Positions 10,223 to 43,809 of a DNA stretch of 64,000 nt are shown piece after piece. Positions within the stretch are counted from its first letter, which is position 1. Each line of letters opens with the position of its first letter. This DNA is from Acidobacteriota bacterium (GTDB lineage: Bacteria > Acidobacteriota > Thermoanaerobaculia > Gp7-AA8), in NCBI GenBank assembly GCA_021325515.1, contig JAJPHC010000057.1, positions 62,001-126,000 of the forward strand, written 5' to 3'. The position numbers and the translations under genes are program-made. The notes beneath the pieces are model-generated. The model made no database searches and was not told the origin of the DNA. It saw only the letters and a program-made list of their open reading frames with translations.

Positions 10223-10621
10223 ATGAGACGCGCCGCTGTTGCCGCCGCCTGGGTCTTCGGAGCGACCATTCCGCTCTTCGTGGCGGTAGTGTTCGTCTTC
10301 GGCTGCTGCGTCCTGCCGTTTCACGGCGTCATTCACAAAGCGCTGCCGCTCTGCCACTTCGCTATCGACTTCATCAGCGGCGAGCACGCGGATCATCACG
10401 ACGGCGCGCAACAGCCGCTGCCGGCGCGCGAGAAGCAGGAGCCGGTAAAGCGCATCGCCACTGAAGTGCCGCGCTCCTTTCAGCTCATCGCCGCCTCGGG
10501 CGCCGGACAGCGCGTCGTCGCATCCGACGCGACGATGTACCGCAGCTTCATTGCGCTGGGTGCGATCCGCTGCGACCGAGATGTCGGCCTGCATCTCTTC
10601 ATCGCCACCCTCTTGATTTGA
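10223..10621 (+). CDS. Small exported Cys/His protein, divergent member of 'FRI' family
   Basis: A 132-residue protein with one N-terminal hydrophobic segment running into Cys and His residues (VFGCCVLPFHGVIHKALPLCHF), then a His cluster (HADHHDG) and a low-complexity middle. It ends DVGLHLFIATLLI. The layout (membrane segment, Cys-His patch, variable middle, LH-containing hydrophobic C-terminus right at the stop, effector gene next) matches the proteins at 25164, 34956 and 42220, although the last residues agree only loosely. The Met-rich lipoprotein gene follows after 158 bases. It could be a metal-responsive leader or a metal-binding protein; both are inference. Confidence 0.5.
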   Translation: MRRAAVAAAWVFGATIPLFVAVVFVFGCCVLPFHGVIHKALPLCHFAIDFISGEHADHHDGAQQPLPAREKQEPVKRIATEVPRSFQLIAASGAGQRVVASDATMYRSFIALGAIRCDRDVGLHLFIATLLI

Positions 10622-25082: not shown

Positions 25083-25098
25083 TGTGACGTCGATCACC
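25083..25098. promoter_or_regulatory. CRP/FNR-like site upstream of cus leader gene
   Basis: TGTGA-CGTCGA-TCACC fits the CRP/FNR-family dyad (TGTGA-N6-TCACA). It lies 66 bases before the small Cys-rich gene that opens the cus operon. Similar dyads lie at 41082 and 50063, and all three cores contain CG/TC steps. Confidence 0.45.
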
Positions 25099-25163: not shown

Positions 25164-25574
25164 ATGAACACAACCCACCACATCACCACGACGATATCGC
25201 AGCGATTGATCGCATGCGCTGGCGTGATCGTCCTGTTCGCGGTGTTTTTCGCTCTCCCGCTGTACGCGGCCGTCAATCTCTGCACGATGCCCTGCTGCCA
25301 TCACGACGGCTCGTCGGAGCAGCCGGCTGTCGGCGCCGGCATGTCTGGATGCGCGTCGGACTGCTCGATCAGTGCGGACGCAGCGACCGCTGCAGAGTCG
25401 ATTCGCTCGGTCGCGCCAGCCCGCAGAGGCTTGGAGCATGCCATCGCGGCGACGCAGGTCGTCGCGGCGATCACCACCGCAAGTGATGGCGTTCCCCCGG
25501 TGCGCGACGAGGCGCGACCACGTTCGAGCAGCGCCGCACCGCTTCACGTCCTGAACTCCCTCTTCCGCATCTGA
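25164..25574 (+). CDS. Small exported Cys-rich protein ahead of cus operon ('FRI' family)
   Basis: 136 residues from ATG 25164 (or 148 from ATG 25128). One signal/anchor helix (ACAGVIVLFAVFFALPLYA) runs into NLCTMPCCHHDG, a compact Cys-Cys-His-His metal site. The middle is Ala/Ser/Arg-rich with more Cys (SGCASDCSIS). The chain ends APLHVLNSLFRI at the stop. The N-terminal site and the C-terminus are both shared with 42220 and partly with 34956, while the middle is not conserved. Only 73 bases separate it from the cusC start. It might be a copper-sensing leader peptide or a periplasmic chaperone. Confidence 0.65.
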   Translation: MNTTHHITTTISQRLIACAGVIVLFAVFFALPLYAAVNLCTMPCCHHDGSSEQPAVGAGMSGCASDCSISADAATAAESIRSVAPARRGLEHAIAATQVVAAITTASDGVPPVRDEARPRSSSAAPLHVLNSLFRI

Positions 25575-25647
25575 TTCGGCGGTTTTCTCCCTCTCGCCCA
25601 CCCAGGCGCACGCCCAATGTGCGTCTGTGCTCGAAGGAGACCGCAAC

Positions 25648-27036
25648 GTGTCGATCCGTACCCGATTCGCCGCCGCATTTCTCGTCCTCGTGACGTTCGC
25701 GGCGGACGCGCAAACTACAGGACAAACCGCCGCCGTTCGCGCGGCTCTGCAGGACCCGCAGCTCGAGGCACTCGTCGCCGAGGCGCTACAGCAGGCGCCG
25801 GAGATGGCAGCCGCGCAGGCGAATGTCGAAGCGGCGCAGCGACGCATCATCCCGGCACGGACGCTCGCCGACCCGTTCGTATCCACCACCTATCAGAACG
25901 ACGGCCGCACCCCGTCCCTCGGCAGCGCCGAGGGGAGTTTCCTCGGGCTGATGGCGAGTCAGGCCATTCCGTGGCCGGGCAAGCTGCGGCTCTCTGGTGA
26001 CGTGGCCGCGAGTGAAGCGCGCGAGATCGAGCGCGGAACGCTCGGGCGCACCGGGCTCACGCTCGAAGCGCGTGTCCGCAACGCCTGGTACGACGTCGTT
26101 CTCGCCCGCGCCATCGATCGCATCATCGAGGATCGCCGCACCGCGGCGACGCAGATCGAGGCATCGGTGCGCGAACGGTACGCGGCCGGGCTCGCCGTGC
26201 AGCAGGACGTGCTCCGCGCGCAGGTCGAGCTGGCGCGTATCGACGAATTGAAGGCGACACAGGCGGCGACGATCACGAGCCGTCTCGCAGAGCTGAACAG
26301 ACTCGTGAGCGAAGCGCAGGATCGTGCGATCGCAACGGCCGATCGTCTGCCGGACGACCACACCGTGCCATCGCTCGGTGAGCTGATCGCTTCGGCGTCG
26401 GCGCGCAGCCCTGAGCTCGCAGCCTCGCGGCAGGGCATCGAGACCGGCCGCATTCGCGTCGATCTGGCGAAGAAGAACTTCCTCCCCGACTTCACCGTGA
26501 ACGCCGGATCGATGTACCGCGGCAATTTTGCGATGGGACCGATGTGGCAGGTCGGGGTCGGCGTCTCGATCCCGGCGTGGATCAATCGCCGGCAGCAGAA
26601 CCAGCTCGCCGAAGCGCAGGCGATCGTTCGCGGGCGCACGGCGGAAAGCGACGCGGTTGCGCGCGAGCTGGAACTGCGGACCCGCGAGCGGGTGGCGCAG
26701 CTCGATGCTGCGCTGCGGATCGCATCGCTTTATCGCGACAAGGTTCTTCCGCTCGATGACGTCTCGCTCGAATCGGCGCTGGCCAGCTATCAGGCCGGCA
26801 AAGTGCCGTTCATCACCGTGCTCGACGCGCTGAACACGCTCTACAGCGACCGCGCGATCTACGAAGGAAGGCTCGCCGAAAGCGCGAAGTGGCGCGTGGC
26901 CATCGATGAAGCGAGCCTGCAGCCGACCGCCATGGCGGGCACGCCATCGATGGGCGGTTCGGCGATGAGCGGTGGCACATCTGCACCGTCGGCAAAGACA
27001 ACCAGCAACTCTTCCAGCATGAATTCGATGAGGTGA
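25648..27036 (+). CDS. cusC: CusC/TolC-family outer-membrane factor
   Basis: 462 residues starting at GTG 25648, chosen because AAGGAG lies 8 bases upstream and it leaves a clean signal (FAAAFLVLVTFAADAQ). The chain has two OEP repeats: LVAEALQQAPEMAAAQANVEAAQRR and SPELAASRQGIETGRIRVDLAKK, each starting a long coiled-coil hairpin. The tail is Met/Ser-rich (MGGSAMSGG). It is the outer channel for the CusB-CusA pump encoded immediately downstream, with the cusB ribosome site overlapping its end. Confidence 0.9.
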   Translation: MSIRTRFAAAFLVLVTFAADAQTTGQTAAVRAALQDPQLEALVAEALQQAPEMAAAQANVEAAQRRIIPARTLADPFVSTTYQNDGRTPSLGSAEGSFLGLMASQAIPWPGKLRLSGDVAASEAREIERGTLGRTGLTLEARVRNAWYDVVLARAIDRIIEDRRTAATQIEASVRERYAAGLAVQQDVLRAQVELARIDELKATQAATITSRLAELNRLVSEAQDRAIATADRLPDDHTVPSLGELIASASARSPELAASRQGIETGRIRVDLAKKNFLPDFTVNAGSMYRGNFAMGPMWQVGVGVSIPAWINRRQQNQLAEAQAIVRGRTAESDAVARELELRTRERVAQLDAALRIASLYRDKVLPLDDVSLESALASYQAGKVPFITVLDALNTLYSDRAIYEGRLAESAKWRVAIDEASLQPTAMAGTPSMGGSAMSGGTSAPSAKTTSNSSSMNSMR

Positions 27037-33815: not shown

Positions 33816-34310
33816 ATGAATCGTAAATTGGCATTCGCGCTCCTCGTTTTGCTGATGCTGCCGCTGGCGGCCGCCGAAAATCCCGCCAAATGTCCGGCGT
33901 GCAGCTTCAGTGCTGTCCAGCAGCCTTATGACGCGGTTCGAATTGCGTTGACGGACGATCACCTCTCCATTGTAAGAACCGAGGGGTCGAAGCTGCGCGC
34001 GGCGGCACAAGCGGAAGCGGTATGGGCCAGAACCGCGACGGGACGCGGGCCGGAGCTCGTGATTCCCTGGACGAACGTCGCGGTGGCAGCGGCGAAGATC
34101 GAGAAGGCGGCTACGATCACCGACGCCCGCAAAGCCTTCGGCGAAGCGTCGGAAGGGATTCGCAGCGCGATGACGATCGCCGGCCGGGACGATCTCCTCG
34201 TCGCCTATTGTCCAATGGTGAAACTGCGCTGGATTCAGCCGAGGGGCGAGCTGCGCAATCCCTATGGATCGCGGATGCCGAACTGCGGACAGATCGTGAA
34301 AGCTCAATGA
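33816..34310 (+). CDS. Secreted DUF3347-like protein (third copy of domain)
   Basis: 164 residues with a signal peptide ending LPLAAAENP. A CPACSF motif occurs at the mature N-terminus, which the other copies lack. The domain runs from QPYDAVRIALTDDHL to VAYCPMVKLRWIQPRGE, NPYGSR and MPNCGQIV. It is interleaved between Cys-rich copies 2 and 3, each pair nearly touching, so the DUF3347 and CCCxCN proteins look like functional partners. Its stop overlaps a possible start codon, but the next gene's better start is 34319. Confidence 0.8.
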   Translation: MNRKLAFALLVLLMLPLAAAENPAKCPACSFSAVQQPYDAVRIALTDDHLSIVRTEGSKLRAAAQAEAVWARTATGRGPELVIPWTNVAVAAAKIEKAATITDARKAFGEASEGIRSAMTIAGRDDLLVAYCPMVKLRWIQPRGELRNPYGSRMPNCGQIVKAQ

Positions 34311-34318
34311 GGTGGAGC

Positions 34319-34888
34319 ATGCGCAGGCAGCAGAAGAAACTGAAGCCGGCCGGAGTACTGGCAGCCGTGATCGTGTCGATCGTTGGCGTCGTCGCGTTCA
34401 TCGTGGCAGCAACGGTTGGTTCGCGCGCATATGTCACGCATCATGTGCGCGCGAGTGCGAAGGCGGCGCGGATCGCCGCCGGTCCCCGCGCGAATGTGGC
34501 GCTCCTCGGAGGGAAACTCGTCTTCTCCGACGTCGCCGCACAATCGCGCGAATTCATCCGTTACTACTCGTCCATCCAATTGACTCCCCAGCAGGAAGCG
34601 ATCAAGTATGAAGTGCTCGCCGCGATGCCCGCCGCCTGCTGCAAGAATTCAAATGCATACACATGCTGCTGTAAGTGCAATCTGTCAAAGACTGTCTGGG
34701 GCCTGAGCAACCATGTCCTGTCCCACTATGCGGCGACGGCCGATGAACTGCGACAGGTGATCCAGGCCTGGCGCGATTACACCAATCCCAGCGGCCATAC
34801 CGGTGATTCCTGCTATGTGGGCCGCTGCAATGAGGCGCCACATCAGGATGGGTGCGGCGGCATGCTCGAGTCGGAGCTCATCATCTGA
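34319..34888 (+). CDS. Membrane-anchored Cys-rich protein, CCCxCN/GCGGM family (copy 3)
   Basis: 189 residues from ATG 34319, with GAGGTGG spaced 6 bases upstream. One N-terminal membrane helix (AAVIVSIVGVVAFIVAATV) anchors a periplasmic domain. That domain has YYSSIQLTPQQEAIKYEVLA, AACCKNSNAYTCCCKCNLSKTVWG, YTNPSGHTGDSCYVGRC and DGCGGM. The first Pro of the CCCPC motif is Lys here (CCCKC). Together with copies 1 and 2 it gives two anchored forms and one secreted form in a 2.1-kb stretch. Last gene of this run before the next 'FRI' family protein. Confidence 0.7.
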   Translation: MRRQQKKLKPAGVLAAVIVSIVGVVAFIVAATVGSRAYVTHHVRASAKAARIAAGPRANVALLGGKLVFSDVAAQSREFIRYYSSIQLTPQQEAIKYEVLAAMPAACCKNSNAYTCCCKCNLSKTVWGLSNHVLSHYAATADELRQVIQAWRDYTNPSGHTGDSCYVGRCNEAPHQDGCGGMLESELII

Positions 34889-34955: not shown

Positions 34956-35366
34956 ATGAACAGCATGACTAGTAGAATCAGCCGCGAGCCGATAAACGAG
35001 AGCCGGAGGCCTCATCTCGCCGCAATCACGGCGCCGATTTCGCTGCTGGTTCTGGCGCTGGTCATGCCGCTCTGCCCGGCGGCCGCCGCATGCATGATGC
35101 CTTGCTGCGACCATAGCGTGCCGGCAGCAGATCATGCCGCAATGCCGCCGGGCGGCTGCCATTCAACAGAAGGCTGTTCGCTCGCCTCTCCTCAGGCAAG
35201 CGAGACGCTCTACATCGTCGCCGGCTCTCCCGCCACCACGCCGCCTGTCGCGCCTCACGCTCTGGTTGATAGCGCCAGCGCCGTGACCGCGAGCTCGGTC
35301 GTACAGCCCTTCGCGCATCGTGCGTCACGACATCTCTACGTCGTTAACGACGTCTTCCTCATTTAG
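34956..35366 (+). CDS. Small exported Cys-rich protein ('FRI' family), ahead of ATC-hydrolase-like gene
   Basis: 136 residues with GAGGGAGACGC upstream of ATG. A hydrophobic helix (PISLLVLALVMPLCPAAAA) runs into CMMPCCDHS, then GGCHSTEGC. The middle is variable and the chain ends RHLYVVNDVFLI at the stop. It follows Cys-rich copy 3 and precedes, by 45 bp, the ATC-hydrolase-like gene. The position and layout match 25164 and 42220, although the C-terminus deviates (FLI instead of FRI). Function is unknown; leader or metal chaperone are both possible. Confidence 0.6.
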   Translation: MNSMTSRISREPINESRRPHLAAITAPISLLVLALVMPLCPAAAACMMPCCDHSVPAADHAAMPPGGCHSTEGCSLASPQASETLYIVAGSPATTPPVAPHALVDSASAVTASSVVQPFAHRASRHLYVVNDVFLI

Positions 35367-35411
35367 CGTTTCGATCTCCCGCGTTCTACCGCCACGCAAC
35401 CGCGTGCGCTG

Positions 35412-36125
35412 ATGCGCGCGACCACACTCGGAGATCGAATTGTGAATCCATTCGCATACATCGGAACCCGCATCGACCACGTCGTCCTGCCGCACGTGAG
35501 CCGGCATGCGCTCGACGTGCTCAAGCGCGAGTACGACGCTGTTAGCGCGCACCAGATTTTGTGGCACGCGTGGGACGCATTCGGTCCCATCGTGGCGCGC
35601 GTTCCTGTCCGTCGCCCTCCCGGCACGCGGATCATGCTCTCGCTGGCCGCGGCATCCGCAGCGCTGCATTGCGCGATGATGCGCTCCGGTGCCGAGGAGT
35701 CGCACGCGACTGCCGTGGTCGCGGAAATCGGCCGGCGCTGCTATCGGAATCTCTCGCGCATTCCATGGTGGCTTGGACGGCTCCTGACATTGGACAGCAT
35801 CGCGCGCCTCTCCGTCGCCTCGCGCCTCTCTCACTTGTTTGGATTGGTCGGACCGGCCTACTCGCTTCGAACCGTGTCGCCATCCGACGGCTCCCTGACG
35901 CTCGAAATTCATCGCTGCTCCGGACTGCAGCTCTATCGCGAGCTCGGCATCGCGCATCTCGCCCGACCGCTCGTTTGCGATGTCGAATCCGCAATCGCCG
36001 ATGAATGGCAGGCGACGATGACGCGCACCCACGCGCTGAGCGAGGGACATGCCGTCTGTCGCCATCAGATCCGCTCCATCGCACCGCAACACGGAGGACG
36101 CCATGCCGGTCAACCTCTCTATTGA
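35412..36125 (+). CDS. ATC-hydrolase-like (L-2-amino-thiazoline-4-carboxylate hydrolase fold) protein
   Basis: 237 residues, probably cytosolic. The C-terminal part reads LVCDVESAIADEW, LSEGHAVCRHQI, matching the pattern of the ATC_hydrolase family (an Asp near a Cys, then RTxxLxxGxxxCxF/H). ATC hydrolase opens a thiazoline ring to make S-carbamoyl-cysteine in the D,L-ATC to cysteine pathway. Here no partner carbamoyl-cysteine hydrolase is visible, and many relatives have no known substrate. The C-terminus overlaps the next gene by 23 bp in another frame. Family assignment moderate, activity unproven. Confidence 0.55.
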   Translation: MRATTLGDRIVNPFAYIGTRIDHVVLPHVSRHALDVLKREYDAVSAHQILWHAWDAFGPIVARVPVRRPPGTRIMLSLAAASAALHCAMMRSGAEESHATAVVAEIGRRCYRNLSRIPWWLGRLLTLDSIARLSVASRLSHLFGLVGPAYSLRTVSPSDGSLTLEIHRCSGLQLYRELGIAHLARPLVCDVESAIADEWQATMTRTHALSEGHAVCRHQIRSIAPQHGGRHAGQPLY

Positions 36126-42219: not shown

Positions 42220-42624
42220 ATGATTGACCATCCACGCAGATCGTCCGTGCGAAGCCTCTGCAGCGCTGCAACGGCACTGATCTTCGTTGCGGCCGCGTTC
42301 GTGCTGCCGCTCTGGGCCGGAACGGGAGCTTGTACGATGCCAGGCGGCTGCGCGAAGGCATGCTGCCACCACTCCATGTCGCTTCCTCTATCGGTCACCG
42401 GCACTCCCTGCCGCACTCTCGAGCCGACCACTGTCAGTGATGACATCGAGGAGGCGGGATCGCTGCTCGCGGCAACCGCTCTTACCCAGGACACGCCTCC
42501 AGAGTTACCCGTCCACGCGCGGCCGACTGACCAATTGTCAGTCGCCTTCATGCCGCTACTCCAACGGGCGCTGAATCGCGCCGATCGCCCTCTCCACCTC
42601 GTCAACTCCGTGTTCCGGATCTGA
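42220..42624 (+). CDS. Small exported Cys-rich protein ahead of outer-membrane protein ('FRI' family)
   Basis: 134 residues. A hydrophobic helix (SAATALIFVAAAFVLPLWAG) runs into ACTMPGGCAKACCHHSM, a Cys-rich patch of the same type as CTMPCCHH in 25164. The variable middle is acidic or neutral, and the chain ends RPLHLVNSVFRI at the stop. Stop and next start are separated by 57 bases. The closest pair in the set is this one and 25164 (LHxxNSxFRI). Signals at both ends with a free middle favour a leader-like role, but a small chaperone is equally possible. Confidence 0.65.
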   Translation: MIDHPRRSSVRSLCSAATALIFVAAAFVLPLWAGTGACTMPGGCAKACCHHSMSLPLSVTGTPCRTLEPTTVSDDIEEAGSLLAATALTQDTPPELPVHARPTDQLSVAFMPLLQRALNRADRPLHLVNSVFRI

Positions 42625-42681
42625 TCGCAATCCTTCCTTCCCGCTTCGCTTTCATCTGCGGTTCACAAAGGGAGAGATCAA

Positions 42682-43809
42682 ATGATCCGTCTGCAAAAAA
42701 TCCCGGTCTACGTGTTGTTCGTTACGTTCGCTCTATCTCTCACGCCTGCTGCGTGGGCTGTTCCAATGTGGTCACGCCGATACAGCGTGCCATGCTCAAG
42801 CTGCCATGCCTATCCAAGCCTCCAGCTCACGAGCATGGGGCTCGACTTCTTCCGCAAAGGACATCGCTTCGATACCGACACGTTTGACAAAGACTTCTCG
42901 CACTTCCTCGGCGGGCACGTCGAGACGGAATACGACATCGCCCAGGGAACAGCCAGCCAATTCACTCAACCCGATTTCCACCTTCACGCGGGTGGTGCAC
43001 TGTCTGAATACTTTTCCGCATACCTCGACGCCAATGTGAACAACGATTTCGAAGCCATCTACGCGCAGGCGACCAAAGCCTTCGGAAAAGAGTCGTTCGT
43101 CACGGCACGCGCCGGGAAGCTAACACCGACCATCATCCGGAACTACGCCAATGGAATCATGGCCTCAGCGTCGACGCCGTTGATCATCACCGACTCTACG
43201 CTCGGTCTGAACCCGTTCACTCCTGCGCGCGGCAGCTTCGGAGTCACGGCCGCAGGTGGGTGGAAGTCGCTGTTCTTCGAAACAGGGGTAGTGAACGGCG
43301 AAGATATTCCGGGCCAGGTTTCGGTGAATCGACACAAGGATTTCTTTGCATCGGGAGAGTTCGCGCTGCCCGATGGTGTTACCGGCATCGGCCTCTACAC
43401 GCATCGCGGCGGCTACGACATCACCGATCCCTCGGTTGGCGCATTCGACCGATACAACCGAAGCGCGCTGTTTGCGAACTTCACGCGAAGTGCCTACCGT
43501 GTCGCCGGAGCGTACGTTACAGGTAAAGACTCGATCGCCAGCCTCTCGGATCAGAAGATTCGCGGCTGGTACGTGCAGGGCGACCTCAACTCCATCCGCA
43601 AGATCGCGCCGTTCGTGCGATACGAAGCCACGCGGACCAACGATGGCGCCTCAGACGTCGAACGGCAGCGGAAGGGAACCATCGGATTTTCGCTGACCGC
43701 ATTTGAAACCGAGGTCGGCGCTGGTCGGATCGTCATCGAGGGTTCCCGCACGACGAGCGCTGAGAGTCACAGTAACTCCGCGCTCGTCAATCTTCTTCTG
43801 GCCTTTTGA
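42682..43809 (+). CDS. Outer-membrane protein with one c-type heme site
   Basis: 375 residues with signal peptide (FVTFALSLTPAAWAVP). A single heme motif CSSCH is near residue 39 (YSVPCSSCHAYPSLQLTSMGLDFFRKG). The remainder is beta-barrel-like: alternating aromatic strands such as GWYVQGDLNSIRKIAPFVRYEATRT and a C-terminal LVNLLLAF ending in Phe, typical of outer-membrane proteins. It could pass electrons across the outer membrane or gate a substrate. The gene's last third plus its terminator is repeated at 44863. Confidence 0.78.
   Translation: MIRLQKIPVYVLFVTFALSLTPAAWAVPMWSRRYSVPCSSCHAYPSLQLTSMGLDFFRKGHRFDTDTFDKDFSHFLGGHVETEYDIAQGTASQFTQPDFHLHAGGALSEYFSAYLDANVNNDFEAIYAQATKAFGKESFVTARAGKLTPTIIRNYANGIMASASTPLIITDSTLGLNPFTPARGSFGVTAAGGWKSLFFETGVVNGEDIPGQVSVNRHKDFFASGEFALPDGVTGIGLYTHRGGYDITDPSVGAFDRYNRSALFANFTRSAYRVAGAYVTGKDSIASLSDQKIRGWYVQGDLNSIRKIAPFVRYEATRTNDGASDVERQRKGTIGFSLTAFETEVGAGRIVIEGSRTTSAESHSNSALVNLLLAF

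Follow-up and report, generated by a model that had tools for sequence, protein, structure and literature searches.

Small, putatively exported cysteine-rich proteins with a conserved C-terminus as probable cis-acting leader peptides of metal-efflux and other genes in Acidobacteriota

Small genes and their neighbours in the window

We analysed four small open reading frames (ORFs) in the window, by which we mean the whole 64,000-nucleotide stretch of Acidobacteriota DNA under study (Table 1). All four had been picked out in a first-pass annotation and are present with the positions and termini given there. Three of them, referred to below as leaders 1, 2 and 3, lie directly upstream of the neighbours that the annotation had named, namely genes for a CusC-like protein, an ATC_hydrolase-like protein and a haem protein, respectively. 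The CusC-like gene is followed by CusB-like (HlyD_D23) and then CusA-like (ACR_tran) genes, and at locus L103 a leader is likewise followed by a gene 66% identical to the one behind leader 3.

Table 1. Positions of the putative leader genes and associated features in the window.
Feature	Position	Strand	Remarks
Leader-like ORF, sister family	10223..10621	+	FGCCVLPFH..PLC; conserved 25-residue tail RSFIALGAIRCDRDVGLHLFIATLLI-stop
Crp/FNR-like palindrome GTGACGTCGATCAC, 5' of leader 1	25084..25097	+	
Putative leader ORF 1 (136 aa)	25164..25574	+	Helix, CTMPCCHH, C..C, variable middle, tail APLHVLNSLFRI-stop
Predicted hairpin 5' arm behind leader 1, GCGGTTTTCT	25579..25588	+	Starts 5 nt past stop codon
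Predicted hairpin 3' arm, leader 1 locus, AGGAGACCGC	25635..25644	+	Ribosome-binding site region of CusC-like gene
CusC-like outer-membrane efflux protein gene (OEP) behind leader 1	25648..27036	+	
Putative leader ORF 2 (136 aa)	34956..35366	+	CMMPCCDH, tail RHLYVVNDVFLI-stop
Predicted hairpin 5' arm behind leader 2, TTCGATCTCC	35370..35379	+	
Predicted hairpin 3' arm, leader 2 locus, GGAGATCGAA	35430..35439	+	Ribosome-binding site region of next gene
ATC_hydrolase-like gene behind leader 2	35442..36125	+	PF14196, E=3.9e-8
Putative leader ORF 3 (134 aa)	42220..42624	+	CTMPGGCAKACCHH, tail RPLHLVNSVFRI-stop
Predicted hairpin 5' arm behind leader 3	42630..42639	+	Imperfect
Predicted hairpin 3' arm, leader 3 locus	42668..42678	+	Ribosome-binding site region of next gene
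Exported protein gene behind leader 3	42682..43809	+	One CxxCH haem motif; probable outer-membrane barrel

Two further features were seen on the 5' side of leaders. In five orthologous operons (the window, L101, L102, L106 and L108), a palindrome of the form GTGA-N6-TYAC stands 57-87 nt upstream of where the leader approximately starts; its background rate is 0.07 per kb. In addition, an exported Cys-rich protein containing CCKNSNAYTCCCKCNLSK (window 34310-34888), which had no match in Pfam, adjoins leader 2 and also occurs upstream of a leader in genome G003 (upstream ORF of L032).

Membership and layout of the family

The four ORFs had been proposed to encode related proteins, and this proved right for three of them. 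A profile built from 12 members (A1) matched leaders 1, 2 and 3 in their own genome with E values of 1e-45, 3e-32 and 1e-20, respectively, and did not match the ORF at 10223. Leaders 1 to 3 form one family. A search with the leader 1 protein and the same profile (E range 1e-45 to 1e-20) also returned a fifth copy in this genome (G000:C61:179331-179729), located 51 nt upstream of another TolC/CusC-like gene.

Using a wider profile (A3) across the phylum Acidobacteriota, we found matches at E<=0.01 in 45 of 396 genomes, many of them full length to the stop codon; the weakest of these matches are doubtful and were excluded from the counts below, which refer to 43 members from across the phylum. 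Related loci in the genome collection came from metagenome-assembled genomes labelled Acidobacteria or Thermoanaerobaculia, and a scan of genome contigs with a narrow alignment returned only four loci, all of them close. The plasmid collection contained no relatives of the family. Two candidates outside the phylum were rejected: in Pelobacter, which carries a plasmid-borne relative of the CusC-like gene, the gap upstream of that gene is too short for a leader, and an ORF of Candidatus Manganitrophus (Nitrospirota plasmid, L146 2298-2639) has a Cys patch and lies just upstream of a TolC-family gene but ends differently and has no such tail.

The first-pass annotation knew of no described family with these features, and our searches agree. 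The window proteins had no match in Pfam up to E=10, DUF2946 was not found by 20 family members searched against Pfam up to E=1, and neither NCBIfam nor the PDB held a credible relative, so that assignment to a known family was dropped.

The genes next to the leaders differ between groups. In a first set, 19 of 27 next genes encode an outer-membrane efflux protein (OEP, PF02321), and in another group of the phylum 12 of 13 encode YtkA/FixH-like lipoproteins with a Met-rich motif. One kind of leader thus stands before unrelated effectors (OEP, YtkA-like lipoprotein, ATC_hydrolase and haem barrel), which argues that it is a regulator rather than a subunit.

Members share a hydrophobic N-terminal helix, a CxMPCCHH patch and another pair of Cys; their middle is not conserved, and their tail runs into the stop codon. 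The last 11-12 residues, through the very last one, are the most conserved region of the protein. Over the 43 members the last 11 residues read P-L-[FYH]-[LIV]-x-[NH]-x-[SVAT]-[FLI]-[LR]-[I, rarely R/C], always immediately before the stop, with F, Y or H at -9 in 41, N or H at -6 in 38, F, L or I at -3 in all 43 and L or R at -2 in 42; in one group the final residue is Arg, Cys or Ser. The earlier observation that both ends are conserved and the middle is not was borne out by pairwise identities in seven orthologous operons (0.75 for the tail, 0.52 for the CxxPCCHH patch and 0.17 for the middle). At identical residues, the codons differ in 31% of pairs within the own family (f1) and in 52% over all members, and therefore it is the peptide that is conserved and not just the DNA. 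When the tail was searched for as a DNA-encoded pattern (Y/H-hydrophobic-hydrophobic-N-x-x-F-R/L-I-stop) in 147 genomes of the class, all 11 matches were members already known from the whole-protein profile, and the reversed control gave one match. In the 5.4-Mb genome of the window, only the three window genes matched. The tail is by itself diagnostic of the family.

The distance between the two conserved ends is also kept. Counted from the C-terminal end, the first CC is at 90±3.3 residues (range 82-101, n=41 members) and the second Cys pair at about 60-79. Identity in the stretch from -35 to -15 is about 10% and the length changes little, which argues that length itself is under selection. 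The ribosome tunnel and the translocon together span about 65-70 residues, and with the tail at the peptidyl-transferase centre the CC patch would therefore already have left them. AlphaFold2 models of seven sequences were confident for the hydrophobic helix at residues 8-40 alone, with nearly everything else at pLDDT <50.

The ORF at 10223, whose C-terminus had been described as only loosely similar, lies outside the family profile and belongs to a family of its own with the same two-ended layout. Its homologues (33-74% identity) occur in nine other genomes of its taxonomic family and have in common FGCCVLPFH...PLC and, after a middle that is not conserved, the 25-residue tail RSFIALGAIRCDRDVGLHLLxxTLLI-stop; the CC is mostly 98-108 residues from the end. 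The last 19 residues of the two families share a register, but hhalign gave a probability of 1.7%, which is no evidence of homology. We regard 10223 as representing a sister family that may work alike. The probability that the next gene's Shine-Dalgarno (SD) sequence is paired exceeds 0.7 in 7 of its 12 loci and is 0.35 for the window copy. A TGATCC-type sequence is present at and past the stop codon in most members (10223 and loci L158-L169).

A predicted hairpin over the next start site

In loci of the same class and in a few others, bases +1 to about +15 past the leader stop are predicted to form a helix with the next gene's ribosome-binding site. Behind leader 1, the minimum free energy structure pairs +5 to +14 with -4 to -13, the order of the junction being stop TGA, TTCG, GCGGTTTTCT ... 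AGGAGACCGC, AAC and GTG. By partition function, the SD zone pairs with the first 25 nt past the stop at a probability above 0.97 in 16 of 17 loci of this type, and at 0.99 or more in each of the three window copies. Among other same-strand gene pairs, called with a crude gene caller in 20 stretches and in the loci themselves, 3 of 75 exceeded 0.97, all three among the 40 that were length-matched. The comparison of 16/17 with 3/40 gives a Fisher p of 2.6e-10, to be read with the relatedness of the 17 core loci in mind, since they do not amount to 17 independent trials.

Each post-stop arm also matches the start site of its own locus more closely than the start sites found in other members (swap/permutation test, p=5e-5). 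By zone, this arm-specific signal is found 0-20 nt past the stop (p=0.0002) and not at 20-40 (p=0.89) or -20 to 0 (p=0.23), with a weaker signal at -40 to -20 (p=0.003). The helix also covaries. When eight arms were aligned by hand, both sides had changed in 4 of 9 pairs, and 97% of the cells in the alignment pair compared with 39-50% in slid versions. The arms in this count were picked from predicted helices and are therefore biased toward structure, a bias that the swap test does not have.

Not all of the family has the hairpin. In two more distant groups (g2 and g3; L080 and L110-L119, and L081-L091) the start site is mostly not hidden by a post-stop arm, and we therefore dropped the hiding of the SD as a general trait; in these groups the tail may act via another RNA element. 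In L112, L113 and L115, the next ribosome-binding site looks complementary to the last codons of the leader (GCAACGCCTCGAT and ATCGAGGTGCTGC are an example), as though the arm had shifted into the end of the coding region (weak group test, p=0.02). A consensus structure proposed for four AT-richer spacers was unconvincing. The spacers of L084, L088, L094 and L083, which precede YtkA-like genes, keep their length (125-128 nt) and carry repeated TGCGCC-T-run segments near the stop that are possibly terminator-like.

Interpretation and comparison with known systems

Taken together, these small genes probably encode cis-acting leader peptides, nascent-chain attenuators of the translation of the next gene whose tail would stall the ribosome at the stop codon or close to it. 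The N-terminal helix would target the leader to the membrane, and from the geometry of tunnel and translocon the Cys/His patches would reach the periplasm while the last residues are still in the ribosome. Binding of a ligand there, most likely Cu(I) or a copper-dependent thiol state, would make the tail PLHVLNSVFRI hold the ribosome either on the stop codon or immediately ahead of it. Metal binding by the leader is suggested by the Cys/His patch and the neighbouring genes. With the stop codon in the A site, some 12 nt beyond it are covered by the ribosome, and most of the 5' arm would therefore be masked. The hairpin would then open, and the efflux gene, or whichever other gene follows, would have its ribosome-binding site freed for translation; if there were no signal, the ribosome would leave, the hairpin close and the next gene stay off. 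By this hairpin logic arrest means on, and an efflux operon should be on when metal is in excess. We infer from this that metal probably switches the next gene on, the polarity of CutF and the opposite of CruR. Counted against arrest is that the window tails contain none of the known arrest signatures RAPP, RAGP or Pro-Pro.

The nascent-chain part of the metal sensor proposed in the first-pass annotation fits these data, as the most conserved part of the protein reaches the stop, the distance from CC to the tail is 90±3 residues and the RNA past the stop is predicted to hide a ribosome-binding site. Whether metal is what such a chain senses is a separate matter. A switch responding to secretion or thiol redox instead, with disulphide formation pulling the chain, would suit the four conserved cysteines and the putative export helix, and in SecM a hairpin of the same logic serves the sensing of secretion (PMC10987492). 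What usually follows the leader, however, is a heavy-metal efflux gene or a gene for a Met-rich YtkA/FixH-like lipoprotein, not a secretion or Dsb gene, and we consider this alternative unlikely.

The hairpin might also work by plain translational coupling, in which any ribosome terminating at the leader stop briefly opens it and the protein sequence of the leader is irrelevant. The hairpin does sit exactly where a terminating ribosome would disturb it. Coupling nevertheless leaves unexplained both the 11-residue tail, which is the most conserved part of the protein and is kept in groups lacking this hairpin, and the fixed 90-residue spacing to the conserved cysteines, and it appears quite unlikely to be the whole account.

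The leaders might instead be finished proteins, that is, periplasmic metal-binding proteins or chaperones whose tail docks to a partner such as the efflux channel or the membrane, for which the Cys/His patches and the predominance of metal-efflux outer-membrane proteins among the next genes would speak. The AlphaFold2 models show no fold past one helix, the middle is 17% identical between orthologues whereas the partner OEPs in orthologous operons are 51-79% (mostly 64-79%) identical to that of the window, the same tail precedes unrelated proteins and the RNA hairpin is left without a role. We strongly doubt this reading, and with it the targeting-dependent chaperone suggested earlier, which finds no support in the models or in the unrelated next genes.

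Nonpolar C-termini are recognised by Tsp/Prc- and PDZ-type proteases, and tail-type degrons require only the last few residues. The least probable alternative is that the hydrophobic C-terminus is a degradation tag of this kind that clears the released leader, regulation being left to hairpin and translation only, which agrees with the rapid degradation of secreted CutF (PMC9973294) but not with specific residues conserved out to -9 and -6 or with the group ending in Arg, Cys or Ser.

A bolder reading, to which we give even odds, takes the proline-free tail to be a new class of arrest peptide with its action at the termination codon. A Cys/His patch 90 residues away would link it to the sensing of metal in the periplasm, it would be in use before different effectors throughout Acidobacteriota, and the 10223 family would be an independent second solution in the same genome. 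Were this so, periplasmic metal sensing during synthesis would have arisen more than once, and a new arrest sequence, placed at a stop codon, would be available for structural work. The leader reading would also account for a class of unannotated small proteins before copper operons.

The closest known system is CutF of Rhodobacter capsulatus (cutFOG), a small exported, cis-acting protein with a Cys copper-binding motif and a conserved C-terminus, in which copper prolongs an arrest-like state; OEP genes are often the neighbours within CutF-like operons (PMC9973294). The first-pass annotation had called CutF only an analogy, which understates the likeness, since CutF also has a stem-loop hiding the start site of the next gene (PMC9973294). 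The family described here shares the small, here putatively exported Cys protein, the conserved C-terminus, the predicted stem-loop and the OEP neighbours. At 136, 136 and 134 aa and with motifs such as CTMPCCHH, the window leaders fall within the CutF-like size and motif filter (<150 aa, Cys/His metal motif), and a stem-loop as called for there is predicted at each of them. The same filters ask for an N-terminal signal peptide, for which the hydrophobic helix at residues 8-40 is the candidate here. CutF needs a proline-rich tail, however, and the CutF-like survey asked for Pro-Pro among the final 15 residues (PMC9973294), whereas the three window proteins have no Pro-Pro there. The tail of the family is PLHVLNSVFRI-stop, and its Cys pattern is another. 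Some distant members of the family do have PP just before the tail, and a few of these could sit in the 29 published CutF-like clusters. Acidobacteriota is absent by name from the text of that paper (PMC9973294).

CruR (DUF2946) of Bordetella pertussis has RAPP with a CXXC 45 residues away, and copper relieves its arrest, with Rho-dependent termination and an uptake gene downstream (PMC9426467). It resembles our leaders, as we read them, in being metal-responsive and in having a conserved Cys motif and a C-terminal motif at a fixed distance; the window proteins differ in having no RAPP, no Pfam match to DUF2946 and their first CC 90±3 residues from the end. RAPP/RGPP arrest peptides more generally are small leaders whose C-terminus is conserved and which precede metal and secretion genes (PMC12992588, PMC10951233), and their motif is again missing from the window leaders. 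Judged by sequence, a CruR-like class coexists in the phylum as a separate class. Small Cys-containing proteins of the phylum ending in RAPP or RGPP were seen as weak profile matches in L098 (SPRAPPTV), L121 (KRGPPSYSL) and L096 (KRGPPTSFFL).

SecM, upstream of secA, combines an export signal and an arrest tail with a hairpin over the next ribosome-binding site that the stalled ribosome opens, and senses secretion (PMC10987492). A putative export helix and a predicted hairpin are seen here too, but the tail is not FxxxxWIxxxxGIRAGP and the next genes are not secA. CopL and CzcI, small exported proteins with metal motifs, are encoded upstream of copper or czcCBA genes and have been proposed to be regulatory (PMC9973294); their mechanism is not established, and the leader family had no credible match to them in NCBIfam.

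In the open-access literature, the Sec/YidC survey covered the regions 5' of sec and yidC genes (PMC10987492) and the RAPP/RGPP survey searched for that motif (PMC12992588, PMC10951233); the filters of these and of the CutF-like survey would not return the window proteins. CutF and CruR, the metal-sensing nascent chains that we found described in detail, both have proline-based tails, unlike this family, and if our reading is right the leaders would form a new family within a rare kind of metal switch.
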